This document shows positions 10,101-63,936 of a stretch of 64,000 nucleotides of DNA, piece by piece; positions within the stretch are counted from its first letter, which is position 1; the number at the start of each line of letters is the position of its first letter. The stretch is from positions 8,781,747-8,845,746 of the forward strand of contig NC_079488.1 in the NCBI RefSeq assembly GCF_020520425.1, read 5' to 3'. Under the pieces are notes generated by a model, which was not told the DNA's origin, did no database searches, and saw nothing but the letters and a program-made list of their open reading frames with translations. Position numbers and translations under genes: made by a program. This DNA is from Spinacia oleracea. Taxonomy: Eukaryota > Streptophyta > Magnoliopsida > Caryophyllales > Amaranthaceae.

Positions 10101-13100
10101 GGTATTCACTAATCTCGATTCGAGTCTAGTTTCGTTTGTTCAATGGATCCGTTTTAGTAGTCTATTCTTTTTTAATTTCTTTTCTGGAACTACACAAATC
10201 AATAAGTAGTGGTTCTCCTGTGAGTATATCTCTGGGGAGATAAGATTTTCTACTAGATCACAGTGATATGCAGATAATCCTTGGGTTCTCTCACCATGTT
10301 TCCTTATCACAGTGTCACACTGTGCTTGTAAAATGCTGAAATCACATATGTGATATGGCTTCTGAATAAACTTATCTTTGTTGTGTTAAAGGGCATTCAA
10401 TCTGTCTAAGACTTCATTGAAATACTCTGAATTCATGAATCTATTTTGTTTACAGAGACCTGTGAATCTTTTCCTTTCAAGCAACGTCTTCCAGAATCTT
10501 AAGACAGGAAGTTAGAGTTACTTAATACCTCTTACTTACAACTAAACTGATTTTGACCTCAATTGGAGCTTTTTATGGAACATTTGCGCGCGTAACACAC
10601 ACACACACACACAAATACACTAGTTCACTAGTTCTTGTCATACTATTAAAATCCTCCTTATATATACTTTGTGCTTATTTATCAATGATTTATAAGCATA
10701 TACTATACAGTCCCAACTTTGCCAGAATCTTATATTTGAAGAAGGTCCTTTTCTCCTTTTTTTTGGCTCTATGTTGTTGTATTGTTATAGGCTGCTCCGG
10801 CACTTCGAGGGCTGATAAGTATTATTTTTGTACAGATGTTGGGCGCATTGGTATTGGTATATGTTATGATATTCGCTTTCAAGAATTAGCAGCAATTTAT
10901 GCAGCAAGAGGTATGTTTTCACTTTTGGTTTATAGTGTGTTAGTTCTTAATATTGTTGATCTCTCCTTTCTCTTAACTTGCCTCTCTCTTTGTCTTCCCA
11001 TCAATCCTTACCCATCTACTCATATTTTCCTTTCTTCTATGGATTTTTTTGTAAGGAACGAAACAAAGGATAACTATTTTGGGTTTTTTTTTTCATTTGG
11101 AAGTGTTTCCCATGGAAAATCATTTTCCCTGTAAATGTTTTCCGCCAAACCAAACGGAGCCTAGGCCAATTTAATACTGTAAACACAAATTTACGAGTCT
11201 GCAAAAATAACGAACTCACAAAATAAGTGAACAAAATATTTTATATTGATTTTTGTATTTGGGTACAATCTCTAATGTTTATCCACTGATTCGATCTCTA
11301 CAACAGCAAGAACTTGTTTTGTCGGACGTCTTGAGCGAGGGCCACCGGACTTGATCTCTTTCAATGACGTAGTATGGAGGTAGAACGGCGTTTGTGCTTG
11401 ATGTTCTTCTTCCACCGAGATTTGATGTCGACTTGTATGCTTGGAAGCAGTCTTAGGGTTTTATGGAGAGTAGTGTGTTTTCTGAATATTACGTTCAGTG
11501 TCTGCCAAATGACTTGGAGAGAACTTTTTTATATCCTCTTATTAGGTTTAGGGTTTTTCTTTTGATAAATGGGCCTCTTTTCTTTAACCCAATTAACTAA
11601 CTCATTTCTATTAAATGAACGTCATTAGACTCAAAATGGGCTTATTTGATTTATGGCCCAAATTACACAATTTATCCGACATTTAAATAATAGAAGTCAA
11701 CATTTGACTTTTCCGGGACCAAAATTGATGACATGGCATTTATCAAATTTTTAATGCCTACGAATACACCATTACCAAGTGAGATCACATATTCTGATGT
11801 GCTCGTCATGTCATCTATAAATTTATAGTTCCAGTCCAACCAAGAAATCAATGAGTGGTCGACGCCAATCTTCTATGTCTATCTCATAGACAGTAACTGC
11901 ACCTGAGAGTTCTTCAGCTTCAATTTCAGCTTCATCTTGAGGGTTTATCACCCATCGATTACAGACCGGGACCGACATGTTTTCTTCTGCCCCCAGTGCC
12001 AATGTGGCTGCGAGATTTGCAAGTGCATCCGCTGTCTTGTTGGCACTCCTTGGAACATGTTGCAACCGGACGCTCTCAAATTCTGCTAGCAATTGTGAAG
12101 CATGCTTGTGATAAGGAATCAAATCATCTTTCTTGACATCATAATCGTCGAGGAGTTGATGGATCACCAGCTTGGAATCACCATATACATCAAGGTCCTG
12201 GATTTTCATTTCTTTTGCCATTTGAAGTCCTAGAACGAGAGCTTGATATTCAGCAACATTGTTCGAGCATAAGTTGGTGAGCGTAAATGAATACGTGAAG
12301 ACATGCTTCTCCGGTGATACAAGGATGACCCCTGCTCCAGCACCATCTTGACGAGCCGCTCCATCGAAGTACATTTCCCACGGAGGCAGGACATCAATGT
12401 AGAATACTTCTTCTCCGGGTAGATCATCAGGAAGCTCCCAATGTGATGGAATCGGATGTGCAGCTAGGAAATCAGCCAAATCAGCCAGAGCTTGTCCCTT
12501 AATCGCCTTTTGAGGTACATACACAACGTCATGTTGACTTATGAGCATAGCCCATTTAGCAAGTCGCCCGGATAACACTGGCCTTGATAAGATGTACTTT
12601 ATGGGGTCAGCTTTGGAGATTACCTTCACCGTATGTGCTTGCATGTAATGCTTCAACTTCTGGATTGCAAAGATCAAAGCTAGGCACACTTTCTCGATAG
12701 GCGAGTAATTCAATTCCGCGCCAACCAACGTACGACTGAGGTAGTAAAGAGCAGTTTCTTTTCCTTCATCATTTTCTTGAGCACACAATGCCCCCAATGA
12801 CCTTTCATGAGCAGAAATGTATAGGATAAGTGGCTTCCCTTGAACCGGTGCCCCCAAGACAGGCGGAGTTGAGAGGTATTGTTTGATGCTTTCGAAAGCT
12901 TTGCGACATGCATCGTCCCATTCAAATGGAGCACCCTTTTTCATAAGATGGCTGAAAGGATGACATCGTCCTGCAAGATTCGAAATGAAGCGTCGAATAT
13001 ATGCAAGTCTCCCTTGTAATCCGCGCAATTCTTTGAGGTTCTTCGGCTCGGGCATATTCTGGATTGCTGTAATTTTTGATTGGTCAACTTCAATTCCTCT

Positions 13101-16100: not shown

Positions 16101-19100
16101 AACTTTTGGATTTGATACTTCTCTGGTGTTGCTTTTGACGAAGAGGAGGTTGTGCTTCTAGTTTCGTTTGCTTTCTCTTCTTCCTCCTTGTCACTAATGT
16201 CCATCCCTCTTCATCTTCTTTGCGAGGTAGAGGGGTGGACGCAAAATTCTTGACGGGATCCATTATCAAAATGGGATCCAAACTTCCGAACTGGATGGCT
16301 GAAGCATGATGGGACTCAGCCGTCCCATCTAGATCTAGCACGATCCTTCCTTCAGTTGCAAGTTGCATGATTCTCTCCTTGAGAGTGATGCACTTTTCGA
16401 TAGGATGGCTCACTATTCGATGATAAGGGCAAAAGTTTGGGTCGGATGTCCTTCCCATTTGATCAGGGCGCTTAGACTCAGGCAAGCTTATGACCTTCTT
16501 CTCCAACAAATCGCCCAACATGCCGGCCAAGTCTGAATCCGGAAATGGATACTTCTTTGCTTGGAGTTCTTTAAGAGTTGGCTTATCTCTCCGAGCATCC
16601 TTTGAAAATGACCCTTTCTTCTGTTCAGTTTTAGGCTTCGCCGAGATTTTTACAGGGCAGAGCTAGTGGCAACGGCAAATGACTCCTTGGTTGAATCTTT
16701 CACGTATTTCTCGGGCTTCTTGAAGTCCTTCTTTTCCTTCTTGAAACTTGAACTTCCTCCACGATTATTGGTCATACTGATCTCCATGTCATGAGCACGG
16801 GTAGCCAAATCTTGAAAGGATCTTGGTTTTATGCCCTGCAAAATGTACAACAAATCCCAGTTCATACCTTGAATACACATTGCAATAGCCGAAGTTTCCG
16901 TCAGACGATCTTTGCATTCCAGGCTTAACGTGCGCCATCGATTGATGTAATCTACGACTGGCTCGTTTTCCCATTGTGTCGTCTTTATCGATTCAATCAT
17001 GCTGACGACACGTCTTGTACTGTAGAACCTGGCCTTGAATTCTTCCTCCATTTCTGCCCAACTGTCGATGGCTTTTGCAGGAAGGTCCGTGTACCAGTCG
17101 AATGCTGTGTCCTTTAGAGAATGGACGAACTGTTTGACGAGTAGATCTCCCGACGTGCCAGCATTGTTGCACGTTTCGATAAAGTGGGCTACATGCTGCT
17201 TGGGGTTCCCTTTTCCATCAAACTGCTGGAACTTCGGAGGTTGATAACCGACGGGCATCCTCAAGTAATCAATCCTCTTCGTGTACGGCTTTTCATATAG
17301 ATGACTGGGGCCGGAATCTCCAGTGATGTGGTTCTTCACCGCATTCGTTACCATATCCTGGATCTTTTTCATGGTGAATGCGTCGTCAGGTTTTTCACCC
17401 TTTTTCGTAGATTTTGAAGCCGTACTCCCTTCAGAGTCGCCGTTTTCTTCGTCCGTGCTATCTTCCTGTTTATTGAGCTTTTTGGTCAAGGAGGAAATCT
17501 TCTCATTCTGCTTCTCGATTTTCTCGTCCTTCTCTTTGCCATCCTTCATGAGCTTCATGATCATGCTCTTCATTTCGGCGAGCTGCTCTTCAACGGTCTT
17601 TGATTCAATCGTCATCACCTCCGCAATGTCGGTTTGTAGGGACTGGGCCGATTCTTCACAATCTGACACTTTGAGGGGTGACGTTGGAGAAGACCCGGTA
17701 CTACTCTTTGCATCACTTTCTACATAGAAAGGCTCGAACAAAGGACTGGTGTGGATGACCAACCTGTCAGGCTTTTGGTGAGGACGCATATCTTCTTCAC
17801 CGGGCATAAGGAATCGTGCACCTTCAGCAGGAAAGGACCCGAAAACAGGGATGTTGCGGGACTTGCGGTAATACGGATTCGGGGACACGTCGGAGGAGGC
17901 ACGGACATGGCTCTTTCTCCTTGTTTTGGTGGTGATAGGCGCCGAACGCAGACTTGAAGCAGCCTCATTCAGATCAGCGTTCTTCATTCCTCTGGTGCGT
18001 ATACCCGCGTCACGCCCTTTCATCATCTCAGCCAATTCCGCCGCCCTTTGTTTCACAATAGCGGTCTTTTCGGCATCGGACATGGAAACGGTTTGTTGAG
18101 CAGCCATCTTTGTTGGTAGATTGATTTTTTTTGTAGAGAAGGAGATGAGTGGTAGAGTTGTCCCACCGAGCGTGACAAATTTGTAAACACAAATTTACGA
18201 GTCTGCAAAAATAACGAACTCACAAAATAAGTGAACAAAATATTTTATATTGATTTTTGTATTTGGGTACAATCTCTAATGTTTATCCACTGATTCGATC
18301 TCTACAACAGCAAGAACTTGTTTTGTCGGACGTCTTGAGCGAGGGCCACCGGGCTTAATCTCTTTCAATGACGTAGTATGGAGGTAGAACGGCGTTTGTG
18401 CTTGATGTTCTTCTTCCACCGAGATTTGATGTCGACTTGTATGCTTGGAAACAGTCTTAGGGTTTTATGGAGAGTAGTGTGTTTTCTGAATATTACGTTG
18501 ACTTGAAGAGAACTTTTTTATATCCTCTTCTTAGGTTTAGGGTTTTTCTTTTGATAAATGGGCCTCTTTTCTTTAACCCAATTAACTAACTCATTTCTAT
18601 TAAATGAACGTCATTTGACTCAAAATGGGCTTATTTGATTTATGACCCAAATTACACAATTTATCCGACATTTAAATAATAGAAGTCAACATTTGACTTT
18701 TCCGGGACCAAAATTGATGACATGACATTTATCAAATTTTTAATGCCTACAAATACACCATTACCAAGTGAGATCACATATTCTGATGTGCTCGTCATGT
18801 CATCTATAAATTTATAGTTCCAGTCCAACCACTTTCTGAGTGTCTGGATATCCACTTAGCTCCGAGTTTTTAATGGGTTTATATCGTACATTTGTACACC
18901 CTTTGTTCCCTTAATCTTTCTCTTTTGCTTTCTGAAGATGAATTTTTATTGTTAACTTCTCTTAGAATCTATAAATTGAAATTTAATAAAAAGTGTATTG
19001 GCTGTTTCGAATTAAAAGGTAACTTTAATAATATGTGCAGCGGAGGGATTAGTTCATAGTTTGAGGTTTCTTTTTAGATAACCAATAATTCTTTTCACCG

Positions 19101-39954: not shown

Positions 39955-39963
39955 TTAAATCTA

Positions 39964-40127
39964 GGAAATTTTGTGCAACACTACCTTTAAGTTTGGACGT
40001 TTTGTGAATTACTACCTTATAAAAAAGTTTTTTAATTTTGCTACCTTATAAGTTTGTTTAGTTTGAGTAACACTACCTTGTAACAGTTTCTGTCAAATTC
40101 CTCCGTTTGTGGGCCCCACCTCCAACG
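39964..40127 (+). repeat. left terminal inverted repeat of MULE-1
   Basis: 164 bp beginning GGAAATTTTGTGCAACACTA and ending CCCCACCTCCAACG. Likely transposase binding site and promoter for the transposase gene. Confidence 0.95.
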
Positions 40128-40377
40128 TTTCCCTCCATTTTCATAATTGAAATTACTCCTATGTCCCCCCATTTGCTTTCCCACCAACTTCTATCTTCTC
40201 CTTTCTCTTTCCTCTGTCATTTTTCTTTTCCTCTGCTTCACATTTATTCTTCTCTCCTTCAATCTCAACCACAAACCCTAAAGCCATAATTGATGATGCT
40301 ACACTTCTGAATCTTCTTCAAGTCAAGAGATTCTTCTCTTTATTACGCGCAGTGGTCCAAAAGGAGATCTTGGAAAG

Positions 40378-43300
40378 ATGAAAACGACAGGAAGTGGTCC
40401 AAAGGATAAGGGAAAGGGGATAATGCCAACGAACCGACAAGGTGGATCCCAAATCAGGTATTAAACAGTTAAAACAATGCGATTTTAGTAGCTTAATGTG
40501 ATATTATTGGTTAATTAGTTGTTTAATTAGGAATCCCTAATTTTTTAATTGCACTGTGAAATTTTGAATCAAGAACCCTAATTTTTTATTGTCATTGAAA
40601 TCCACGAATTCATTGTTTAATGTTGTTGGAAACCTTAATATGATTGTTTAAATGATTGTTTAATGTGAATAATGATTAATTGATTGTTTAATTGAAAAAC
40701 CCCTAATTTTTTAATGTCTAGGGTTTCTGGATTGGGTTTCTGGATTAGTGTTGTGAAATAATTGTTTATTATTGGAAAAATTAGATTAGTATAACTGATT
40801 AGTTTATTAGTTTACAGTGATTACATGTGGTTACTTTTTTGTTCGTGTTGTGTAACCAAGTCGAACACTTGGACACGTACCCGAGTCGGGACTTGGACAT
40901 GTACTCGATTTGGGATTTTTTAAATTTTTTGTAATCACTGTTGATTTGCAGTTAATTTTTTTTGGTAATTAAAATTGTAGGAATGAGCAGTTGGGTTACA
41001 TTGATCTTGCAATATGGATGGGGGGAAAGTTTGTTTTCAATAAGGGGGAAACTGATTATGTTGGTGGGAAGTTGTATACTAGATTGACAGTGTGGTTGCA
41101 TGAGTTAACTGTTTTTAGTTTGAGGGAGCTTGTAATGAAAGGGATGAGTGGAACTATAGGGAGGATTATTGAGAATTTCAGTGTATGGTTTAGGCTACAT
41201 GGGATGAATTTGACTAAGGGTAGGAAGATTATACACACTCATGATGATATAGGGAGGTTATTGGAGACAAAAGATGGGTCTAACAGGGTGATTTTGTACA
41301 TTATTGAGGAATCCAAACCAGCTTTTATTGGCCCATCTGTTACCTACCAAACTGCCAACTTTAAACCACCAAGACCACTGAAACAAGCTACACAAAGCAA
41401 TCCTTCTGGGCCACAAAGAACACTGACCCAGCCCATTACAACCAAACCTGCTGGCCCATCAACAGTGACCCTAAAACAAGTGAAAATGGAACCACTTCAG
41501 TCAAAGTTTTCCCTAGTTAGGAGAAGCCCAAGGCTTGGTTTTGATCCTGATGTGATTTACATGGGAAAGGGTACAGGGCCAAGTGAGAATCCATCCACTG
41601 TAAAAGAACCCAACAAAACCCAATTAAAAAAGCCAATTGCTTCAGCCACTGTCAAAGCAAGTGTTCCTAAACCTATTCCCTCAAATATATCTTCAGTTGA
41701 TCCTCACACTCCAAGTACAGAACCAACAGAAATCCCTCCTCATACCACCACCACTCCCACAAAACCTTCAAAAACACCTCTGCCTGCAAACCCACCTCTT
41801 CTTAGTCCAGATTTGAAGACCTCTACCCCTAGGAGAAAGAGTGTAGCACAGAAGGGGAAAAAGGTCAAAGGAAAAGCAGGAAAAGTAGGGAAGAAAAAGG
41901 GGAAAGGAAAGAAAAAGGATCCTGGGGACTGTTTATTTGAAAATGATGAGTTTGGTGATTGGTCTGAAAGTGATTCAGACTTTTCAGATTTAGATGTGGA
42001 GTTTGAACCAGGGGAAGAGGACAGAAAACAACTAGAGGAGGATGAGTTGTTCTGTGAGCCATTGTCTACTGTGTTGAGGGGAAATAAGAGGGTAGATAAG
42101 GTTGCAGCACCTGAGGTGGAAGAACAAGTGGATCTAGCACCTGAGGTGGAAGAACAAGTGGATCTAGAACATGAGGTGGATTATGATTCAGAGGAGCTTA
42201 GAAGTCTTTGTGGTTCAGATGATGAAGTAGATCCATACCCTACCTTTAATCCAGAGTCAGACTTCAAGAAAAAGATTGTGCTCAGTTTGGGTTTAAAGTT
42301 CCCGAGTGTTCATGCTGTTAGGAAAGCGATAAGGTATCATTCGATCGAGAACCACTACGATTACTACCTTCTTCATAATGGAAGGAAGAGGGTGAGTGTG
42401 TATTGTAGGTATAGATGTAGTTGTCCATGGGATAAAAAGCATGCAAAGCTTGTAAAGTGTGTGTGTGATGATCCACATAAGTGTAGGTTTAAGATTCATG
42501 TGAAGAAACTAAGGATGGAAGAAACGTTTCAGATCAAGTCTTTAAGGTTAAAGCATACTTGTGGTGTGGTTCATTCAAGTTCTAAAATCACATCGGAGTG
42601 GTTAGCTGAGAAGTATTTGGAGGAGTGGAGGTCAGAACCATATTGGAGGCTTGTTAAGGTTAGGGAAAGGGTTTACAAGGAAACGGGGCTACATATTGGA
42701 TACTACAAGTCATGGTTTGCTAGGGCTAGAGCCAAATTGATTCTGTATGGGGATGCTGCAGATGAGTATGCTGCTGTGTATGACTATGGGTATGCAATTC
42801 TTCAATACAATCCTGGTTCTTCAGCCTATGTACAATGCCAGATTAGAGACAACCCCACTCCGTTCTTTCAAAGATTGTACGTCTGTTTTGAGGCTCTCAA
42901 AGTGGGTTTTAAGAATGGATGTAGGCCCCTGATTGGAGTAGATGGTTGTCACCTTAAAGGGGCTCATCCAGGAATGATCTTAGTGGCTGTGAGCAAAGAT
43001 GGAAATAACAATATTTTTCCCGTAGCTTGGGCAGTGGTGGAAGTTGAGAATGCTGACAGTTGGACATGGTTTCTTGATTTGCTGATGAAGGACATAGGAC
43101 ACCATGACGGAGAAGGATTGACTCTTATGTCTGATAGGCAAAAGGTAATATAGTTTTATTCTTTTGTTCAATGAGGTACAGTTTCTGGATGGTTTACTAA
43201 CCTTGTGTTTCTGTTTATTGTTTCAATTCAGGGACTATTGGATGCTATATCTGTTGTGAGTTCAAAAGCCGAGGTCAGATTTTGTGCTAGACACATATGG

Positions 43301-45027
43301 GCTAACTTCAAGAATAAATTCAGTGGCACAGCCTATAAGGACCTGTTTTGGGCAGCAGCAAGATCAACAACTAAGGTTTGCTATTCTTCAACTTGGTTGC
43401 ATTTAGGCTTTCATGTTAGAAATGGACTCGTATTCTTAGATTTAGTTGCATTTAGGCTTTCATGTTAGAAATCGACTCGTATTCTTAGATTTATTTGCAT
43501 TTAGGCTTTCATGTTAGAAATCTACTCGTATTCTTAGATTTGACGGCACTTGTGATTTTATTTTAGAAATCGACTCGTATTCTTAAATTTGGTTGCACTT
43601 GTGATTTTATTTTAAAAGCATGTGTGTTTAGGGTAGAAAAGTAAAGCATGCTTCTTGGACACGTTCCCGAATCGTGACTTGGACACGTACCCGAGTCGGG
43701 ACTTAATCGCACTAAATGTATAAATGTATAGCATTTGTTATTGTTTGTTGATGTCATCCTTGTTTTTGTTTGTTACATGTATAGCATTGGCATGATTCTT
43801 ACATGGCTGAAATCAAAGAGCTAAACGAGGATGCATATAACTACTTGAGTGACATACCTCCTGTTCATTGGTGTAGACATGCATTTGGATCGAATTCTAG
43901 GTCTAACATGTTGCTCAACAACCTTTGTGAGACATTTAATGCTGTGATAAGGGAAGCTAGGGATAAACCAATAATAACCTGCCTAGATTGGATTAGGAGG
44001 TACGTAATGAGAAGGAATGCTGAGAAGTGGGAGGGTATTCAAAAGTATGAGGGGAGGTTTATGCCATTTGTTGAGAAGGTTTTAGCTTGGGTTTATGAAG
44101 CATCTTTGAATTGTATAGTCTGTCCTTCTAGATTAGATGAGTGGGAGGTGGAAACTGCTTTTGATAGGCATGTGGTAGATTTGAAGGAGTTGACATGCAC
44201 ATGCTTTAGGTGGGAGTTAACGGGAATACCATGTCCACATGCTTATGCATGTATTGTGAAGAAGAGGTGGAGGCCTGAAGATTTTGTTCATGAGTGTTAC
44301 TCAAAGGCCAAATACTTAGCAACTTACTCGCCTCATATCAAGCCAATGCCCGGGATGAAGCAGTGGAAGAAAACAGATTTGCCTCGACCTTTGCCTCCAC
44401 TGTTAAGGAAAATGCCAGGAAGGCGTAAGTCACATAAGAGAAAGAAAGAAGCAGGTGAGGATGCTGAGGAGAGGTTTGTGAAGCGAGGGAAAAAGCCGAA
44501 TAACTGCTCAAACTGTAAACAACCAGGCCACAACAAGAGAAAGTGCAATAATCCACCTGGTGTTATTCAGCCCAAGGAACCAGGGAGGGATCCCTCCAAG
44601 AACCCATGGGTTGTTGCTGACAGAAACAAGAGGGCTGCAAGAGTTTTAAGGGTGAGTTTTTGTCATGTATTTACATTGTTTCTGTTGTTTAGAGCTGAAT
44701 CTGTTTCTGTGTTTCTATTGTCATTAACAATATGTGTTTCTGTTGTGTATGCAGAGGTATAATGCTGAATCAGTCACTCAACCACAGCAACAAAACTCAA
44801 GTGCAGCTACCATGCAACAGACATTTAATGCTCCACCTCAATCCAGTCAGACAGGGAGTTATCAACCTCCTCCACTCAGTCAGACCTCAAGTCAGCAACC
44901 AGGTCAGACAGCAAGTCAGCATCCAGGTCCATCCAGCCAAACATCAACTCATCAGCCTCAAACATCACTCCCTCCAAAACTCAGACCCAAATTGCAGACA
45001 ACAAAGAAACCAGTGTGGCATATTTAA
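40378..45027 (+). CDS. MURA/MuDR-type MULE transposase, 5 exons (MULE-1)
   Basis: Exons 40378-40457, 40981-43144, 43232-43375, 43785-44651, 44755-45027 splice in phase to 1175 residues. The enzyme excises and reinserts the element by binding the terminal repeats. After an N-terminal region there is a Pro/Ser/Lys linker and an acidic region with a repeated APEVEEQVDL unit (about 42108-42170). A MuDR-type DNA-binding domain follows (FPSVHAVRKAIRYHSIENHY). The DDE core has Asp680 (GVDGCHLKG), Asp745 (MSDRQKG) and a Glu near 844 (CETFNAVI). A SWIM zinc finger (CTCFRWELTGIPCPH, about 930) and a CCHC knuckle (CSNCKQPGHNKRKC, about 1036) follow, then a Gln/Ser-rich tail. Residue numbers are approximate. 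All catalytic residues are present, so it is probably functional. Confidence 0.9.
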
Positions 45028-45615
45028 GTATTGTTGGTTGTAATTCCTTTGAACAAGTAGTTAAGGTTTCTAATTAGCAACAAGGTTACATTTTGGCAAT
45101 GACAATTCTAATTAGGTGCAAGGTTTACATTGGAACACTGTGTAAAGATTCATTTGCCCCTTAATTATATTTGACGTTCGAGCTCGGCTCACGCGTGGCT
45201 CGTTTCAGTTAAGTGCAGGTTTAACAAGTTGTTGTTCTTGTTGTTCACTTGTTGAATTGTTGTTATGAATATATGATGTTCAGGTGTGGTTCATTTGAGA
45301 AAAATTTGTCCTCCATTTAAACTAAGTCAATGGACCAAAGTTGACTCCCGTTGACTTCAAGGACTTTACCTAATTTATAGATTTATCCTCTGTGGTGAAT
45401 GACAGGTGAAACGAGCACGTATACTAACCAAGTATACTAACCAAGTTTTAATCGGTACACAATTAAACGGAGCTAATAATCGAACACAAGTTAATGCAAA
45501 AAGATATTGTCATAAGCTAGAATTACCATTATTAAATGATTAGAGTCAACTAATGTCAACAACATTACATTACATTACATGAAATCCAATTTCCCGTTCC
45601 ATTGTCGCGTTTACA

Positions 45616-46065
45616 CTAGAGGAACTTCATTACAAACTTCAACACACAACAAACAACTAATCCTACAACAAACCAAAATACAGAATGGGCAATTTCTTGG
45701 CCCTTATCCTTTGTCCCCTTCATTCCAGCCACTCCACCATTGCATATCCTTTCAAGCCTCTCATTGGCAGCAACAAGAAGGGCTTTGTCATCCTCCAACT
45801 TCTGCAATTCTGTCATCATGACCCTCAACTCTGTTTTCAGCAATCTCTTCTCCACCACCAGTTCATTCGTCACGACTCTTTGCCACTCCACAACATCAGG
45901 ATCAACCCAATAAAACCAACCACATCCTTTCCTACCAGTGTGTACATCAGAGAACTTACAAGTCAGGAATTTTCTCCCCGGGTTATCAGTTGTCCACGAT
46001 GTCAACATCTTGGATGGAATGCCACAATAACATTTTTTTGAAGCACAAGGAGACCCACTCGACAT
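45616..46065 (-). CDS. GRF zinc-finger, coiled-coil, membrane-anchored protein (MULE-1 second gene)
   Basis: 149 residues. GRF-type zinc finger with Cys12, Cys14, Cys36 and Cys48 (CYCG ... NPGRKFLTC ... GCGWFYWVD), then a helix likely to form a coiled coil (VTNELVVEKRLLKTELRVMM, about 65-105), then a C-terminal hydrophobic segment (SVFWFVVGLVVCCVLKFV) like a tail anchor. I start at 46065 because a TTGCAG acceptor lies one base before this ATG and a GTGAGT donor lies at 46354, giving a 5' UTR intron. A TATTTAA box lies near 46485, just inside the right terminal repeat. GRF domains in other proteins bind single-stranded DNA or RNA. The role in transposition is not known to me. The gene converges on the transposase, tails 588 bp apart. 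Confidence 0.85.
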   Translation of the reverse strand: MSSGSPCASKKCYCGIPSKMLTSWTTDNPGRKFLTCKFSDVHTGRKGCGWFYWVDPDVVEWQRVVTNELVVEKRLLKTELRVMMTELQKLEDDKALLVAANERLERICNGGVAGMKGTKDKGQEIAHSVFWFVVGLVVCCVLKFVMKFL

Positions 46066-46516
46066 CCTGCAACAGTTAAAACAACTAATTATTAGTATTT
46101 GATTTCTCAATCAAAAACCCCCAAATTGCAAATAACGATCAAAATTGATATTTTAAACCACGAATACCCACATTTTTAGTCAATTCAAGAACCCAATTTT
46201 GCAATGTAGTTGTTTTCACATGACAATTCAAAGGTTTCAAACGCTAAATTTATCAAAAGGATTCGAATTTAATAAAATTGAACAAGAACAAAAACCCTAA
46301 ATTGAAAAAATAAACCCAGAAATTGAAGAACAAGAACGAATTTAATGCACTCACCTTTAGGTTACTCGATTCCTCAACCAAATTGCGAATCTTGCTTTGA
46401 GAAAAAAATTACCCAGATTTCTTGATTTTTTTCCGAAAAATTGGTTGAATGTGGTTGATAAAACTTTACAGGAAGTTTAAATAAGGGGGAAAGGGAGTTA
46501 AGCAGTTGAATATAGC

Positions 46517-46680
46517 CGTTGGAGGTGGGGCCCACAAACGGAGGAATTTGACAGAAACTGTTACAAGGTAGTGTTACTCAAACTAAACAAACTTATAAGG
46601 TAGCAAAATTAAAAAACTTTTTTATAAGGTAGTAATTCACAAAACGTCCAAACTTAAAGGTAGTGTTGCACAAAATTTCC
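46517..46680 (-). repeat. right terminal inverted repeat of MULE-1
   Basis: Exact reverse complement of the left repeat over 164 bp by eye. Probable promoter of the GRF gene. Confidence 0.95.
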
Positions 46681-46985
46681 TTAAATCTAAAGTGTCACGG
46701 TGGTCAACATGAGTAGCCAATTTAATGTCCATTTGTTTTCAGAGACCCGGATTTGAATCTCATAGGAAGGTTTTTGCTCGTTTTCCTTTTTTTTACACGT
46801 ACTTTTTTTCATTTGAATGAGAAGAGCAAAAAAAACAAAAAAAAACATCGTAGTACACATTTTATTTACGAGTTTATTTGATCTTATATTCCTAACCTCA
46901 TCCCTAATTTTTGTACTCCGTATACACGTATACATGTAGTAAAATTTCGGTGCTTTATTATGCATGGGGGCCTCCAAATTTAGTA

Positions 46986-47321
46986 CTCCCTCCGTCCCGA
47001 AATACTTGAAACGCTTTCCTTATAAGGTCATCCCGGATTATTTGCAATGTTTATAAAAATGATTTTTTTTTTTATTATTATTATATCAATTTCTCACTTA
47101 TCCAATGAACCACCTACATCCCTACTCCCTAAAATGAACATTAAAAGTGATGCACCCCCCATCCCCCTACCCCTTTAAAAGTTTGACACACATTCTACTA
47201 TCTATATTAAAAATACCCCACTCTCAACTACTCCGTACCATCTAATTAAATACTAAGTCAATTACAATGCATTAAACTATGTGCAGGTCAAACCGTTTTA
47301 AGTATTGCGGAACGGAGGGAG
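46986..47321. mobile_element. Stowaway-type MITE
   Basis: 336 bp. CTCCCTCCGTCCCGAAATAC ... GTATTGCGGAACGGAGGGAG with TA on each side. Confidence 0.87.
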
Positions 47322-47972
47322 TACATACATAATTGGCACATGACCTCCAAATTATTTAAGACGACCCTGCCCACCCACCCACCCAACCCACCAACTTCGT
47401 CAACTTCTTGGTTGGTGCCAATATATAATAGTTACCCAAGCTAGGTAATCGCCGAGCTAACTACATTCGTTTTTTTAATTACTAGTACTAGGGGATTAGT
47501 AAACCCTAGTACTCCTAACTTCTACCGCAACAACTATTTAAACATTGGAAATCAAGCAAATTATAATGTCCGATATTACGATCTAGTCATATTAAGTAGT
47601 GTTCAATTATCAGGACGTTTGTTACTTACAATTATACGCAAGAAAAACTTATATATTCGACATACTCTATATAGATTATTGGTTATTTATTTTAAAAAAT
47701 ATTCTAAGTAAATCCACTCCTCAATAGTCAATTCTTTTATAATTGTTAAGTTTAATCACATTGCATCAATCATCTAATGTCTTCAATGTGTGGGACAAAA
47801 GATCTTTTATGGATTTAACTAGACCATGCAAAATAATCCGGATTATAGCAAGATTCTCCTCCTTGAACTAATTTTGTTGGTTATAAAAGACTCAAATCAA
47901 ATGTAGTCGATTATTTTCAAAAGGATGAAATATCCATCATAAATTTAGAGTCCTTTATGCCAATACAATAAT

Positions 47973-48764
47973 TTCCTCCGTTGAAAATTGGACATTTGGA
48001 TAAAACACTTGCATTATTCCATGAAAACATCCAAAAAAAGCACTACCACTTTGACTCACAATGATTTAGGTAGAATTTTCCACCAATCAAATCCCTTTTT
48101 TTATTAATAGAAAAACAGTAATGGACAAAGAATATTGCAAACGAGAGAGTAAATTTGTTTGCATTTGCAATATCTCAACCAAAAACAAAAAATCTCACAG
48201 TATCAAATAGAAAATTAAACCAAGGACTGTATAAATCAACAGGTAAAGGAAATGTTTGAGCTTAATTAACTAAGGGCGTGTTCGGTATTACTTTTTGTAT
48301 TACTTTTCTATTTTTAGAAAACTAAAAACAAACAAAAGTAGTTTCTCACAATTTTTTTTTGTCCGTTTTCAAAATTAAGATCAATATTATAAATATTGTA
48401 AACATGACTAATTTTTAAATCAAGTTTTGATCCGAATCACGTGAATTTCGAAGCCATAAAACCAAAATTCAAAAACTAAAATTGATAATGAACATACCCT
48501 ATAATATCGGATTTGTGTCTTTAGAACAACGATTAATTGGAGAACTTGCTTCAATTGAAATACAAAATCTTATATATGGCGGTCTTATGCATAAGATTAA
48601 GTTTTTGCCAGATAGTTGTATAATCTAATCAAATTGTTACACATTGTAATCAATAGCTATATTCAATTAATTATTTTGTACAATCAATCAATTAGTCATA
48701 TGGTCTAGACTTTGTTATCGTATAATTCAATTTCTTTTAATGCTGACATCAACAGTCTTATTCA
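47973..48764. other. region between duplication copy 2 and MULE-2
   Basis: No gene seen. It contains one probable MITE, listed next. Confidence 0.6.
48274..48500. mobile_element. probable MITE with GGGCGTGTTCGG-type ends
   Basis: Left end GGGCGTGTTCGGTATTAC and right end GATAATGAACATACCCT are an imperfect inverted pair. The interior is rich in AAACTAAAAAC words. No clear target duplication. Confidence 0.45.
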
Positions 48765-48774
48765 TATGTCAGTC

Positions 48775-48920
48775 GAGTAAATAGATCTGCAGGTCCCTAA
48801 ACTTTGCCAAAAGGAGCAGTTAGGTCCCTCAAGTTTCAAAAGGAGCATTTAGGTCCCTGCGTTTGGATGGAAAACGCTGCTTTTTGTTTTCCGTCACTAA
48901 CGTCCGTTAAAATGCATTTA
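48775..48920 (+). repeat. left terminal inverted repeat of MULE-2
   Basis: 146 bp; contains repeated AGGTCCCT words (three in about 60 bp). Ends at ...AAAATGCATTTA. Confidence 0.92.
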
Positions 48921-49289
48921 AATTAAAAGGAAACTAAATAAAAGGTACTAAACGACAAAAAAACAGTTACATTTACCATTTACCAATAATTAAATAAAGG
49001 GAAATTCATTTCAGTTAGCTTTTTACAAAAATATAGCCGTTGAGGCTCTCAAAAAACAGAGTATTTAACATTCCATGCACATCAAAACAACAACAAAACA
49101 CTTAAAAAAAAAATTCTTTCTTCTCCATCTTCTGCTCTGTGTTTTTTCTCTGTTGCTCCACCATAGCTGACTCTTCTCAACATAAAAAGGTATTTTTCTG
49201 CCATTTTTTTGTAAATCTTAAGTTAGCTTATTTTAACAATAATTAAACATATTTAGGAATAAATTATTAAAACGTAATTTATTTGCAGA

Positions 49290-49718
49290 ATGATGAACAG
49301 GGCTATCTCTTTGTTCAACAATGGTGATAATGAACACCCTAAGAGGTGCTACTGTGGATTCACAGTATCCATTCAAAAGGCATGGACAAAAGAAAATCCT
49401 GGAAGGAGGTTCATTGCTTGTCCAGATTATGATGTTGAAACAAACAGAAGGGGTTGCATCTTTTTTAGATGGATTGATGAACAAGAACCAACAACTTGGC
49501 AAACAATTGTCATACTAGGGTTAATGCAAGATAAACAAAGCCTTGCTGCTGAAGTTGATAGTTTTAGGACAAAACTTAGTGAAGCTAACAATTATGCAAG
49601 GAAGAGGGAGGCAGACTATGTGATGAGCAAGATGAGAAGACCTATTAGTGTGAAATGTGAAGTGTGGGTTGTAATCCTAGTGGTTCTGTTTTTTTTTATC
49701 TGGTTTGTTTTAAGTTAA
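49290..49718 (+). CDS. GRF zinc-finger, coiled-coil, membrane-anchored protein (MULE-2 second gene)
   Basis: 142 residues. GRF finger with Cys20, Cys22, Cys44 and Cys56 (CYCG ... NPGRRFIAC ... GCIFFRWID), then a helical segment (QDKQSLAAEVDSFRTKLSEA), then a C-terminal hydrophobic anchor (WVVILVVLFFFIWFVLS). A TTTGCAG acceptor lies one base before the ATG and a probable GTATTT donor near 49190, so it has a 5' UTR intron in the same place as the MULE-1 gene. It reads toward the transposase gene, with only 81 bp between the two stops. Sequence outside the finger is little like the MULE-1 protein, but the layout is the same. Confidence 0.85.
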   Translation: MMNRAISLFNNGDNEHPKRCYCGFTVSIQKAWTKENPGRRFIACPDYDVETNRRGCIFFRWIDEQEPTTWQTIVILGLMQDKQSLAAEVDSFRTKLSEANNYARKREADYVMSKMRRPISVKCEVWVVILVVLFFFIWFVLS

Positions 49719-49799
49719 GTGGGTTAAGTGGGTAGGTAAAATGTAATGATCTGCACTAATGAAATGTAATGAAGACTTTAAATTCAATAAAATCTAACC

Positions 49800-52700
49800 T
49801 CATGGTCTTTTTTCTAATCTTCTAGCCATTGCAAGATCCTGCAATGCTTGGCTTGATATTGTGTGTCCTTGACTTGGTTGAGTCTGTGACAATGGGAAGT
49901 CATGTGCAGGGAAGGAGTAGATGGTTTGCTCACCCCCATGATCAGAATAGAAAGCTGCAGGAGGTCTTTGCCTCTGTGGTGTGGGGAAGTGTTGTGATAT
50001 AGGCTGCATTAATTAAAACAAATTAGGAACAAGTTGGCTTCAGTACAGTAAAGTAACATGTAAGAAAGAATTTGAGTATATTGAATGACTTACAGTAGCT
50101 ATTCTTTGATACCCATTTGGGTAGGTATAAATACCCACACCCCTATTGTGCATTGGTATAGCTGAACTGGTTCTTGGGTGTTGTTGCTGTGGTGTGGTCT
50201 TCTCTGCAGTAGCATGATTGTTGCTGTGTTGTTGTTGCTTAGGGGCATTCTTGCAACCCCTTTTGTTGTGGCCTATCACACCACATAAGCTGCATTTCAT
50301 AGAACAACCTGTTCTCTTCAGCTTACCAGATGCAGTTACCTCTCCAACACCATATCTCCTCTTTGTTTTAGGTCTTCCATTGACCTTTTTCACCTTTGGA
50401 GCCACAACAATGCTATCAGAAGTAGGCCACTCTTGAGGACCATTTAAAGGCTCTAACAAAAATTCATATGCCTTCATGTAGGTCTGTTTGCAGAAATATG
50501 CATTGACATATTGTTCTGGGTGGTCTACTTTATTCCATATAGCAACAATTGCATGTTTGCATGGAATCCCACTCACCTGCCATGCATTGCAACTGCAAGT
50601 ATGTTGGTTCAGATCCACCACATACTTAACCTGTGTTGCACCTTCTCTTACTCCATAGCAAAACCCACCATCCCAGTATGCATTCCAACCCCTAGCCCAA
50701 ATTTTGTGTTTCTCTAACTGAATTTGGATCATAGGACACAACATTATCTCCTTTTTCCCAATGAAATCTCTTTTCTTATGCAGTCTTTCCATCAAACCCT
50801 CTCTAATATCTTCCAACATGGTAATAATAGGCTTGTGTCTTGCACTCAAGATGTATGCATTAAACACCTCACTCATGTTGTTGTCTACACTGTCACAACA
50901 AGATAATGGAGTGTAGAATGCCCTACACCATTTCTTGTAGTTCCTTTTCAGTAGGTCTTCAGCAGCTTCATGTGAAATACCCCTCATTACTTCAATGTTT
51001 TCATTGAAGTGATTTACTGTGTTGCTTTTTGCAATAGTCCAAAATTGTTTTCTGTACTCTAAACCACCTCCAAACACTCCCCTAAAGTTACAGTACACAT
51101 GCCTTGCACACACCCTACTTTCAGCTTGTGGAAACACATTTGACACAGCAGCAAGTAAACCCTTTTGTTGGTCAGACATGAAAGTGTACCATGCTCCTTC
51201 ACTAGTGCCTAAATCAGTAGCTAGAAGTTCTAGAAACCAACTCCATGTGTCAGTGCTCTCAACCTCACAAACAGCCCAAGCCAAAGGGAACATTTGATTG
51301 TTTCCATCCCTCCCTACTGCTACTAACAATTGACCCCCAAATGGTCCCTTTAAGAAACATCCATCAAGTGATATGAAAGGTCTGCATCCTGCCAAGAACC
51401 CTTTCCTAAGTGCCTCAAAACACAAATACAGTCTGTCAAACACATTTGCATCCAACTTCAACTTCACTGTGTTCCCTGGATTGCTTCTTAGTATCTCAGC
51501 TGCATACCTTGGGAGTAATGCATACTGCTCTTTGTATTCACCAACAATGAGTGCTTGACCCCTTCTCCTAGCCCTGGCAGCCTTGTCTTTGCTCACCCTT
51601 ATACCCTTTTCTAACCAAATGGTTTCCTGAATATCTTGCACTCTCATGTAAGGGTTAACCTTAAACAGATTCTGGTAGTGTTCTGCAATCCAATGTGAAG
51701 TCATCTTCTTAATGATAGGTGTCCTACCACAAGTGTGCTCACTGACAAATGTTTTCACTGTAAATGACCTTCTTCCTCTCTCCCATGAAGCCCAAATTCT
51801 CCATTTACAACCTTTATCTTTGTGCTCACACTCTGCACAAACCCTAGTGGAATCATTTTTAGAAAATGGAATGTTTCTTCCTTTATCAATTGAATAATCT
51901 ATGATTGCTTTCCTAAATGTCTTTGGATTCTCAAACTGTTGCCCAACATAAAAAGTGGCTTCCCTCTCTTCAGTTTCAGTGTCGTTTTGCTTCTGTTTCC
52001 CTCTCCCCCTCTTATGGTGTTGTGGTGCAACTAAGTAACCAACATCATCCTCATCTTCTGACTCACTAGGGCTGTCTAAGTCACTGTATCCATCAAAGTC
52101 ATCCCCCAAATTCAGACCACCTTCTACTTTACTTTCTGCTAGTTTTTTCAGCATTACTAACTCCTCAAAATAAGCCTTTTCCCTTCTCATATCATCAGAT
52201 ATCTTAGACCTAGCAGTGGCTAACTCATCATCATCTTCATCTGTACCCTCTGAATCATAATCAATTTCAGGTTGAGGCACATTTTGAGGTTGAATATGAG
52301 GTTCAGGTTGAGTTTCAGGTTGAGTTTCAGTTTGTTTGGGTGGGAGTACTGTAAAAGGTGGTTCCACATAATCAGAATTTAAGTCAACCACATCAGTATT
52401 CAACAACTCAAGGAAGCTACCTCTCCCTCCTCCCCCTCCTGCACTCCTGTTTAGGTTAAAGTTGTAGGTGGGTTTGATTTTATGTTCAATGTATATATGA
52501 ATGCTTTTGTATTCAAAGAGTAAAGCTAAGAAAGGGTCACAAGTACTACTATCAAAACCTAAAAACCTAACCCCATTCTTGAATTCTTTCCTAGGGTCCC
52601 AGAAATGTACTTTCTCTATATCATTATAACCTAAACTATCCACTAATTCCTTAACATATTTGCCATCTGCATTCTCATGGATGTAATCAAAGACATCCAC

Positions 52701-54152
52701 CCTCCCCCCAATATAAACCATATCACCTTGCACAACCCATTCACCACCATGATGCACATATATGCAAGGGTTCAAAGTCAAATCATCAACATCATCTGAT
52801 CAAAGTTAAAACAATATCAATTAAAAGAACAAAACTTTAAGAAATCAAACCAAATGAAAGCTTGAATAACAACACAAGAGATAACAAAAGGAAACAGTTA
52901 TCTTCATTCATTCATCATGATCATTCCATTTGAATTTACAAAAGGGTAGGCTTCAACCCTTACATTACAACCTCAATCCACTATTGAGGGAGAAGCCTAC
53001 GGTTAAGTATAAACTACTGTCATAGCAGTGACAAATACCAAAAACCAACATTTGTCACCTTCCACAAAAACCAACATTGCAATGACAGTAGTAATGTAAT
53101 TGTCCTTGAAAATTAAAAATAAAAAAAGCTATAAACAAGCTGGATCAACAAAAGCTTGACAAAAGAGGGGCCACCACCAGCGCCACCACCACCCACCCTG
53201 CATGGCCTCCACCACCAGCTACTCCTCCTCTTCCTTGAAAAGGAGGGGGAAGCCGTCAAAGTAGACGGTCATGTCCTTGTCCAACCAGGCGTGGAAGTCA
53301 CGACCATCATTGTCAATGATGTCCATGATGACCCACTCACGCAGCCATGCACGGTAGCATCCTTGAGGGTAGTGGTATGGGAGGCGGTACCGCAGCTTGG
53401 CCCACCGACGCCACTGCTTGCACACACTCTGCACAGCAGACTGCCCCTCCCAGTCCAGCCTGGGGAAGATCTGGGTGATTAGAATGTCCTGATGATGGCA
53501 AAGGGGGTGTGCCTCCCTTAAAGCATGGGCTCCTAAAGTCAAAGTAACGGCCAAAGTCAATAAAACAGTAAGTAAACCCTAATTATTATACGGAATCTAG
53601 ATTAAAATACTTCTAAATTAAGAAACAATAGTTTAAAGAAACACCATTTTCAAGAAAATGCAAGCATCAATTCGAATTAATCAAACTTTGTTTTTTATTT
53701 AAGTGAATCAAAAACAGTAAGTGAAACCCTAATTACTACAAAATCTAGTTTAAATTAATTCCAAGTTAGGCAACAATTGTATAATTTAACATATTAAACA
53801 CCATTTTCAAGAACATGCAAGCATCAATTCGAATTAAATATTGGAAAGTAAAAACGGACGAAACCCTAATTCCAACTTCAATTGATAAATTATGCGAAAT
53901 CAGCCCACGATTGTTTAAATTAACATATAAAACACCACAATCAAGAACATGCATGCACCAATTTTGGGAAAAAGTTACTTAACAAAAAAGCCCTAATTTA
54001 TCATGGCTCAACTGCAAACATTTATTGAAAAAACCGACAAATTGAATGAAAATACCTTCGTCCCATCTGGATATTCTTGTTCTTGTTCTCTTCCTGGTGA
54101 GAGCTTCCCACTTGGAATCAGCAGACCTTTTGTTTGATACGCAAGAACCCAT
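49800..54152 (-). CDS. MURA/MuDR-type MULE transposase, 3 exons (MULE-2)
   Basis: Exons 54152-54056, 52795-50094 and 50003-49800 join in phase to 1000 residues. Exon 1 codes for a basic start with RKRTRTR, like a nuclear localisation signal. Exon 2 holds the N-terminal domain (YVHHGGEWVVQGDMVYIGG), an acidic linker and a MuDR DNA-binding domain (FENPKTFRKAIIDYSIDKGR). The DDE core has SLDGCFLKG, FMSDQQKG and the MSEVFNAYI Glu. The SWIM finger (CSCNAWQVSGIPCKH) and CCHC knuckle (CSLCGVIGHNKRGC) follow. Exon 3 adds a Gln/Pro-rich tail. Intron 1 (1260 bp) contains an F-box-like exon described separately. No internal stop or frameshift is seen, so it may be functional. Confidence 0.88.
53219..53532 (-). 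CDS. F-box-like exon inside the first transposase intron of MULE-2
   Basis: 314 bp from a TTTAG acceptor to a TAG stop. The frame reads HHQDILITQIFPRLDWEGQS, then AVQSVCKQWRRWA, which resembles an F-box (the Skp1-binding motif of SCF ubiquitin ligases), followed by about 60 residues ending in an acidic run. It has no ATG of its own in frame at the start. However, transposase exon 1 ends one base into a codon and this exon begins with two bases, so splicing them gives an open 136-residue protein. The area 53156-53530 is clearly more GC-rich than its neighbours, as in captured host gene pieces. No transcript evidence. Confidence 0.55.
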
Positions 54153-54500
54153 TTTTTTGCAGAAAACTCAGAGTAATAACTTCTAATTCTCTTAAGTGTT
54201 TGAGTGAGTAAATGGCAAAAAGACAACTGAGAGTGAAAATGGGGGGGGACCATATAAATAGGAAGTGAAAAGGGGGGAAATAGGGTTGGGAACAGTAAAA
54301 AATTACCGCCAAAACATTATTAGGAAGGAACCAGAAAAAACGAGGGAAGTTGGAAGGGTTTCCACGTGTACACATTGAAAAAGTAAGTTGAAAAGGCTAA
54401 GTGATTGGAAAACGCTTATTTTCATCAAAATCATCTGTTTTCAATCATTAATCTACGTGTATATTAATTCTCCTTTTATTTTAATAATTTTTAATATTAT

Positions 54501-54646
54501 TAAATGCATTTTAACGGACGTTAGTGACGGAAAACAAAAAGCAGCGTTTTCCATCCATTTTGAGGGACCTAAATGCTCCTTTTGAAACTTGAGGGACCTA
54601 ACTGCTCCTTTTGGCAAAGTTTAGGGACCTTCAGTACAGTTTACTC
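54501..54646 (-). repeat. right terminal inverted repeat of MULE-2
   Basis: 146 bp, reverse complement of the left repeat apart from the outer block and one short block. Likely promoter for the transposase. Confidence 0.92.
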
Positions 54647-54659
54647 TATGTCAGTCTTA

Positions 54660-62412: not shown

Positions 62413-62455
62413 TAAGTACTTTATAGATTACAAAATTGAGATATATTTTTATCGG

Positions 62456-62581
<126 letters not shown>

Positions 62582-62670
62582 GCTACATCACAATTGATGA
62601 TGGAGTGAGTTTGGATTTTAGATTGGGGTGACGACAAAGATAAAGGTAGATGATTAAATAATATTGACTA

Positions 62671-63448
62671 AGGCCCCGTTTAGTTTACTTTATTTCGCAT
62701 GATCTGACCTGATCTGAATTTTATTTTTTCTAATCTGATCTGATGTGAACTGATCTAATTTTTCATAATTAAGATTTAAATAAAAAAATTTATCATTATT
62801 ATATTAAACAATTTACATGTAAACTAAATGATTCAAATTTATAATATTGTTATTGAAATTTTCACATTACTTAATTATTTGACTTTGTTCATGATTTAAC
62901 TATTCCTTATAGTATTAGATAGACCTTGACATGATCTATATAGATCGGTTATGATCTGGACATGATATAAACATATTGGTTATGATCTAGATATATGGGT
63001 TCTGATCCGGATATGTTTTACACATAATTACGTACCCTAAATATATGGGTTCTGATGTGGACATGATCCGACAGATCGGGTTTGATCTAAATATATAATT
63101 TTGATCTGGACATGGCTAGATATATCAGTTCTGATCTGTTCATATGAGTTCTGATCTTAACATAACATGGATAAATTGATTTTGATATGGACATGATCTT
63201 GATAAACTTATTTTGATTGGAACACACGAGTTCTGATTTGAACATGATATGGAGACATGGACAGATTGGTTATAAAATGGATAGATAGATTCTTATTTGG
63301 ACATGATCTGGAGAAATCTATTCTTATTTGTACAAGATCTGGACATATCGATTTTGATCTGAATATATGGTTCGGATTTTGACATAATCTGGATGAATAT
63401 ATCAGTTATCTGGATGATCAGGACATATCAGTTATATATGTCTATAGA

Positions 63449-63536
<88 letters not shown>

Positions 63537-63936
63537 GGTTTTGGTCTGGACAAGCTAGCTGGTTCTGATGTGTACAATTTTTTTATAATCTGCACATGAT
63601 TTGGACATATTAGTTATGATCGTGACAAATCAGTTCTGATCCGGACAAATTGATTAGACACATTAGTTCTAATATGACATGATTTGGATAGATTGGTTCT
63701 GATCTGGACATGATATAGACATATCAGTTCTAATATAGGCAGATTGGTTTTGATATGAATATATGGGTTCTAATCTTGACAGACCGGTTAGACACATCAG
63801 TTCTAATATGGACATCATTTGGATATATTGTTTCTGACCTAGATATGATCTAGACATATCGATTTTGAGCTGGACATAATTTGGACATATCGGTTTTGAT
63901 TTGGACATGATATCGATATTTTCTACACAGATCGGT

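Follow-up and report, generated by a model that had tools for sequence, protein, structure and literature searches.

A 64,000-nucleotide window of the spinach (Spinacia oleracea) genome, contig NC_079488.1, positions 8,781,747 to 8,845,746 of the forward strand, contains two Mutator-like elements (MULEs), MULE-1 and MULE-2. Besides the transposase gene MURA, each carries a small gene encoding a protein with a GRF zinc finger, a predicted coiled coil and a candidate C-terminal membrane anchor (Table 1). Both were assigned to the MULEs by their long terminal inverted repeats (TIRs), a target site duplication (TSD) in the 8-11 bp size class and a transposase with MULE, SWIM and DNA-binding domains. 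The inverted repeats of MULE-1 (39963-40127 and 46517-46681) are 165 nt long and 100% identical; those of MULE-2 are 147 nt long and 93% identical. PF10551 (MULE domain), PF04434 (SWIM finger) and PF03108 (Mutator DNA-binding domain) were detected in both elements. The open reading frame (ORF) pieces of MULE-1 MURA lie at approximately 40973-43150, 43229-43376, 43785-44651 and 44756-45027, with splice-like joins predicted from the sequence.

Table 1. Features of the two spinach MULEs, in window positions.
Feature	Coordinates	Strand	Basis
MULE-1 element	39964..46680		TIRs and TSD
Left TSD of MULE-1, TTAAATCTA	39955..39963		exact 9-bp copy
Right TSD of MULE-1, TTAAATCTA	46681..46689		exact 9-bp copy
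Left TIR of MULE-1	39964..40127	+	inverted repeat
Right TIR of MULE-1	46517..46680	-	inverted repeat
MURA of MULE-1, several exons	40973..45027	+	Pfam DBD_Tnp_Mut, MULE, SWIM
GRF - coiled-coil - tail-anchor gene of MULE-1, 149 aa	45619..46065	-	ORF, Pfam, hydropathy, AlphaFold2
Probable 5' UTR intron, MULE-1 GRF gene	46067..46354	-	GT...AG in sequence
MULE-2 element	48775..54646		TIRs and TSD
Left TSD of MULE-2, TATGTCAGTC	48765..48774		exact 10-bp copy
Right TSD of MULE-2, TATGTCAGTC	54647..54656		exact 10-bp copy
Left TIR of MULE-2	48775..48921	+	inverted repeat
Right TIR of MULE-2	54500..54646	-	inverted repeat
Probable 5' UTR intron, MULE-2 GRF gene	49190..49288	+	GT...AG in sequence
GRF - coiled-coil - tail-anchor gene of MULE-2, 142 aa	49290..49715	+	ORF, Pfam, hydropathy, AlphaFold2
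MURA of MULE-2, main ORF 919 aa	50040..52799	-	Pfam DBD_Tnp_Mut, MULE, SWIM

An earlier reading of the window (the original prediction) had described two unrelated MULEs with different terminal repeats, TSDs of different length and diverged transposases. The repeats and the TSDs (9 versus 10 bp) do differ, and MULE-2 MURA copies share only 50-51% identity with MULE-1 MURA over a 152-aa catalytic piece. "Unrelated" is nevertheless too strong, as both transposases are of the MURA type with the same three domains. A MURA intron of MULE-1 holds a 49-nt tandem repeat (window 43382-43626). Between the right TIR and MURA of MULE-2 lies a 119-aa ORF (window 53219-53578, minus strand) with a weak, sub-cut-off F-box-like match (E 0.063); it could derive from a host sequence picked up by the element.

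As predicted, both elements contain a single GRF gene convergent to MURA, with stop-to-stop gaps of 589 bases in MULE-1 and 322 bases in MULE-2. The GRF domain (PF06839) scored 31.6 bits in the MULE-1 protein and 29.4 bits in the MULE-2 protein against a Pfam gathering cut-off of 25.9. PF06839 was the only domain found in either protein in a Pfam scan to E 0.1, with no DUF1985, DUF287 or PMD. Eight further spinach proteins were scored, each named here by its locus (L numbers); L041, L057, L063 and L039 pass the cut-off and L040, L056, L059 and L061 fall below it. Both window genes have a GT...AG stretch whose acceptor end lies one base upstream of the ATG, matching the 5' untranslated region (UTR) intron that had been proposed; splicing is predicted from sequence.

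The predicted helical middle and C-terminal membrane segment were examined by structure modeling and hydropathy. AlphaFold2, run with 49 sequences, models the MULE-2 protein (predicted local distance difference test score, pLDDT, 86.5) with GRF strands, a helix at residues 69-115 and a tail helix at 122-141. The MULE-1 model (pLDDT 86.2) has a single helix at 60-148. The best 17-residue hydrophobic stretches of the two window proteins score 3.24 and 2.66 and are followed by 1 and 4 C-terminal residues. In 10/10 spinach GRF proteins (window plus eight further lineages) the best stretch lies 0-7 residues from the C-terminus and the next best scores at most 1.09, leaving one C-terminal stretch per protein, the sequence pattern of a tail anchor (one membrane stretch in roughly the last 30 residues). 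A ninth further spinach gene, L062, runs into a stop and is without the hydrophobic tail. These models agree with the architecture that had been predicted. The C-terminal end of an annotated spinach protein departs from the translation of window 49290-49718 through a frame change in a T run near the tail, and GRF copies in the spinach genome have variable tails among frames of 144-152 aa. A KASH-type nuclear-envelope tail motif was not seen among the C-termini of relatives, although no dedicated test was made.

Both window GRF proteins belong to one full-length family. Its relatives comprise 75 proteins from across the angiosperms (from genera that include Beta, Chenopodium, Amaranthus, Bienertia, Saponaria, Silene, Vaccinium, Rhododendron, Cuscuta, Linum, Centaurea, Ulmus, Euphorbia, Perilla, Prunus and Triticum), several of them named At4g04775-like. 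A simple hydropathy cut finds the tail stretch in 50/75 relatives, and some of the remaining ones are partial or short. Full-length family membership rules out two separate recent captures, each with its own closest host relative, an outcome that would have spoken against the original prediction. The family alignment found no relatives in viral and genome contig collections.

The family profile matched the GRF chains of NEIL3 (E 2.5e-6 and 3.9e-6) and, less well, ZCCHC4 (E 0.009). The top two Foldseek matches were the GRF domains of NEIL3 and Apex2, both weak (E 0.14 and 0.33). From its architecture the protein would be expected to insert into a membrane, form dimers and bind single-stranded DNA (ssDNA) or RNA. 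Tail anchors usually enter the endoplasmic reticulum (ER). An RNA-level helper, whose finger binds element transcripts while the tail sits at the ER surface and which thereby controls transposase synthesis or export, would fit this destination and the occurrence of GRF fingers in RNA-acting proteins such as ZCCHC4. We consider this role quite unlikely, as the best-matched GRF chains belong to DNA repair enzymes and no specific evidence points to RNA. The GRF fingers of NEIL3 are ssDNA binders (PMC9737245), as are those of related enzymes.

To learn how regularly the two genes occur together, placement was surveyed in one genome, that of spinach (894 Mb). GRF matches came from lists of the best 150 rows; 116 rows, 36-51% identical to the MULE-1 GRF protein, are referred to as distant loci. 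MURA was sought with the 152-aa catalytic piece of MULE-1 MURA and then with the C-terminal SWIM region of L039 MURA. Among close GRF copies, taken as 3.4-kb loci, MURA is present in 36/38, always convergent, and absent at L033 and L036. The MULE-1 TIR is present in 26/30 MULE-1-type loci of this set and the MULE-2 TIR in 6/8 of the MULE-2 type. All of the best 50 MULE-2 MURA copies (of 1975 candidates) have a convergent GRF row within 25 kb, 47 of them within 2.1 kb. With the first MURA query, 55/116 distant loci have a MURA match within 10 kb and 55/55 are convergent, against a mean of 0.31 and a maximum of 3 in 500 runs of random placement. With both queries the count rises to 65/116 (65/65 convergent; the random control applies to the first query only), and within 20 kb to 70/116, 70/70 convergent and none in another orientation. 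The distance from SWIM to GRF is 0.77-2.0 kb in 60/61 pairs. Viewed from the MURA side with the catalytic query, a listed GRF row lies within 10 kb of 55/97 rows below 70% identity and 25/27 rows above. Chance co-occurrence of GRF and MURA is rejected by this survey. The expectation that GRF genes are found mostly with MULEs thus holds narrowly among the distant loci, 51 of which have no listed MURA match within 10 kb.

Selection was estimated as the ratio of nonsynonymous to synonymous substitution rates (dN/dS) by the Nei-Gojobori method. Among good copies, pairs with dS below 1 gave 0.22 (L056/L058), 0.28 (L060/L063) and 0.15 (MULE-1/L031). More distant pairs, at dS 1.5-3.4 and so near saturation, gave 0.11-0.39. 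Ratios were 0.62-0.75 among the MULE-2 GRF gene, L051 and L055, of which L051 is without MURA. As judged from the pairs below saturation, the GRF gene is under purifying selection between intact families, which had been suggested as something to look for.

Placement and selection bear on whether the GRF gene is a passenger, that is, a host gene family of the At4g04775-like kind repeatedly captured by MULEs with no gain to the element. MULEs do capture genes (PMC6446971), certain relatives carry ordinary plant-protein annotations, and the 51 distant loci without MURA could be read in the same way. Capture of this kind is improbable given the single orientation in 65/65 and 50/50 pairs, a spacing mostly of 0.8-2.0 kb and purifying selection between intact families, with ratios of 0.62-0.75 in decaying copies outside active families.

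Seventeen 10-kb loci around relatives of the MULE-2 GRF gene were examined for their transposase partners. Seven have a MURA piece, in every case convergent to GRF (L039, L042, L045, L047, L053, L054 and L055). Four have a FAR1-type transposase piece convergent to GRF (L040, L041, L043 and L049), and six have neither (L044, L046, L048, L050, L051 and L052). Since L048, L050, L051 and L052 retain MULE-2-TIR-like sequence, they are probably relics that have lost MURA. L051 carries three tandem GRF genes (L051:2324-7465) spaced about 2.36-2.38 kb apart, with MULE-2-type TIR sequence and no MURA piece. L049 has a 1340-nt inverted duplication (L049:3752-6462, 98%) with two GRF genes, each convergent to a FAR1-type piece.

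The FAR1-type partner was followed through the genome. The best 150 of 1022 candidate rows include 47 with at least 69% identity; 7/47 have a GRF row within 15 kb and 7/7 are convergent, against a random mean of 0.23 and maximum of 2. With the inverted pair of L049 counted once, there are six loci where the partner facing GRF is a FAR1-type transposase, a new observation. DNA similarity shows L040 and L043 to be two copies of a single element, and they have a third gene in common, so these are not six independent gains. The third gene (L040:8380-9132, minus strand; L043:153-1040, plus strand) has ORFs of 251 and 296 aa that are 78-79% identical. It lies upstream of the GRF gene on the same strand, and the L043 copy has no Pfam match at E 0.01 or better. 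The FAR1-type label is tentative and partly assumed. It draws on SWIM scores just under the cut-off of 19.6 bits (L040, 19.1; L041, 18.2) and on a 216-aa match, at 31% identity, with an L039 ORF that has a MULE domain and whose neighboring ORF shows a sub-threshold resemblance to FAR1. A FAR1-like transposase piece of L039 (L039:1147-3128, minus strand; MULE domain E 8e-22) is divergent from GRF, on its other side. No TIRs enclosing both genes were found at L040, L041, L043 or L049.

Trees of the two proteins were compared. The MURA core tree has 11 rows, L038 and L042 (less than 100 aa of MURA core) and L053 being left out. The GRF tree has 33 rows and, among the 10-kb loci, leaves out L042, L045, L046, L048-L050, L052 and L053. 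In the MURA tree, L039 and L047 group with MULE-1 (support 100/100), and constraining them with MULE-2 is rejected by the approximately unbiased (AU) test (0.0055). In the GRF tree, an 11-row clade (99/96) unites the MULE-2 GRF gene and its copies with a quinoa protein, the FAR1-linked genes and L039/L047; constraining L039/L047 with the MULE-1 GRF gene is rejected (AU 0.0104). The GRF and MURA pieces of L039 and L047 have 79-86% DNA identity, which marks the two loci as copies of a single element and confirms the pairing at no fewer than two sites. Simple agreement between the GRF and MURA trees, which the original prediction had proposed to test, was not obtained: the trees conflict for L039/L047, and the GRF gene also lies next to FAR1-type transposases. 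From this conflict, the GRF gene has probably moved between MULE lineages and is probably not locked to one transposase. The predicted conserved partner of transposition is partly borne out, as a recurrent partner gene of MULE transposases that is convergent in every pair found.

Exchange between lineages is the simplest reading of the conflict; the helper would have been swapped among MULE lineages and at least once into FAR1-type elements. Ancient duplication, in which two GRF genes were already present in an early MULE whose lineages retained different ones, is possible given the few rows in the trees and the duplicates that exist today (the tandem copies of L051 and the inverted pair of L049). 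We regard it as doubtful, as it requires repeated differential loss and alone fails to account for the FAR1-type pairing.

The spinach GRF gene resembles maize mudrB as a MULE second gene that lies between the TIRs and runs convergent to the transposase. We take MURB to be a different protein, outside the GRF family. A GRF finger and membrane tail are not described in the literature available to us on MURB. In maize, mudrB is required for integration, and the TIRs are the promoters of both MuDR genes (PMC8224964); mudrB is transcribed opposite to mudrA, and the need for MURB in integration is reported again in PMC9168764. ORFR of the Abermu elements of barley and other grasses is likewise an extra ORF antisense to MURA and under purifying selection, of unknown function and variable among lineages (PMC9168764). 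By description, it differs in its position, up- or downstream of ORF1, and the available portion of that paper makes no mention of GRF. Antisense PMD ORFs occur in most MUDR and MUDRAVI2 members (PMC6446971, Table 1); these too are antisense extra ORFs of plant MULEs, differing from the GRF proteins, which have no PMD. The accessory-ORF table of MULE groups in the accessible part of the same paper has no GRF entry. At4g04775-like and other GRF-type domain-containing plant proteins are of the same family by sequence and, among the matches listed, are known only as annotated proteins. GRF-type fingers are among the zinc fingers enriched in Asteraceae, alongside transposon domains (PMC10359422). 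The original prediction knew of no description of a GRF-MULE pair, and we likewise found no paper tying GRF to a MULE in the open-access literature available to us, a search that lay outside Repbase, subscription papers and preprints.

VANC and KIU of the VANDAL elements are also MULE-borne accessory proteins (PMC5735166, PMC13317346), and the role of VANC, in the VANDAL MULEs of Arabidopsis, is anti-silencing. The GRF protein could similarly counter host methylation or small-RNA silencing, its tail leading to the nuclear periphery. In its favor, many near-identical copies in the spinach genome (20 identical GRF rows) suggest recent spread. We nevertheless judge an anti-silencing role unlikely. 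VANC carries DUF1985/DUF287 (PMC5735166), absent from both GRF proteins. In addition, the GRF protein is small with a conserved core, in contrast to the fast-evolving VANC with its variable repeats (PMC5735166), and has no known target motif. GRF is not mentioned in the available text of PMC13317346.

We put at roughly 0.7 the probability that one family, with a GRF finger, a long amphipathic helix and a C-terminal anchor, is the regular second gene of many spinach MULE lineages and serves as a transposition helper. Sequence comparison establishes the family, its architecture, placement, recurrence and purifying selection; that the protein helps transposition is what we infer from them. Several results weigh against this reading. 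Among the matches listed, GRF lies within 10 kb of only 1/17 MURA rows below 38% identity and 1/5 rows close to L039 MURA (at least 60%), so the pair is often lost or absent in other MULEs. No listed GRF row lies within 15 kb of 40/47 close FAR1-type rows or of any of the 103 weaker rows. The distant loci without MURA include the 11 rows of a 127-aa GRF family. The trees are small, their groups were chosen once BLAST scores had been seen and L047 has a long branch; a tree that places the FAR1-linked GRF genes beyond the clade passes the AU test (0.064). Finally, Abermu elements of rice remain mobile when they lack the antisense ORF (PMC9168764), so a second gene of this kind may be dispensable. 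That every MULE has a GRF gene is rejected by the 1/17 and 0/103 counts, and that every GRF gene belongs to a MULE is unsupported at the 51 distant loci without MURA. The 127-aa family (L063 plus 11 rows) has open frames and the tail but neither a MURA nor a FAR1-type row within 10 kb; it could be non-autonomous, have another partner or be domesticated.

Elsewhere in the window, two 300-nt direct repeats (11178-11809 and 18182-18798), 98-99% identical and about 7.0 kb apart, look like the long terminal repeats of a retrotransposon. Window 62413-63566 is AT-rich DNA with 8-bp tandem repeat arrays in both orientations.

If the GRF protein is a transposition helper, the likeliest mechanism, held tentatively, is that of a membrane-tethered integration helper, ahead of anti-silencing and then of an RNA-level role. 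The GRF gene would be transcribed inward from the element end opposite the transposase. The long helix would form a dimer and the tail would insert into a membrane, that of the ER or of the nuclear envelope, at which the GRF finger would hold element ends, gaps or transcripts. There the protein may act at integration or hand the element to the host, a MURB-like role outside the MURB sequence family. Taken together, the results suggest that many spinach MULEs employ a membrane-bound helper protein. A broader proposal, against which we would lean at present, makes the tail-anchored GRF protein a swappable accessory module of plant MULEs, including FAR1-type elements, that couples transposition to a membrane, likeliest the nuclear envelope; on this view, the large plant family annotated as At4g04775-like would consist mostly of MULE genes and remnants of them.

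Several other MULE second genes have been described (mudrB, VANC, antisense PMD, ORFR), most of them unexplained. The GRF second gene combines a recognizable finger of known ligand class with a membrane tail and occurs in one orientation at dozens of loci of a single genome; it is also open to assay. If this reading is true, a large family of uncharacterized plant proteins would gain a likely identity, and a membrane step in DNA transposition would be indicated.

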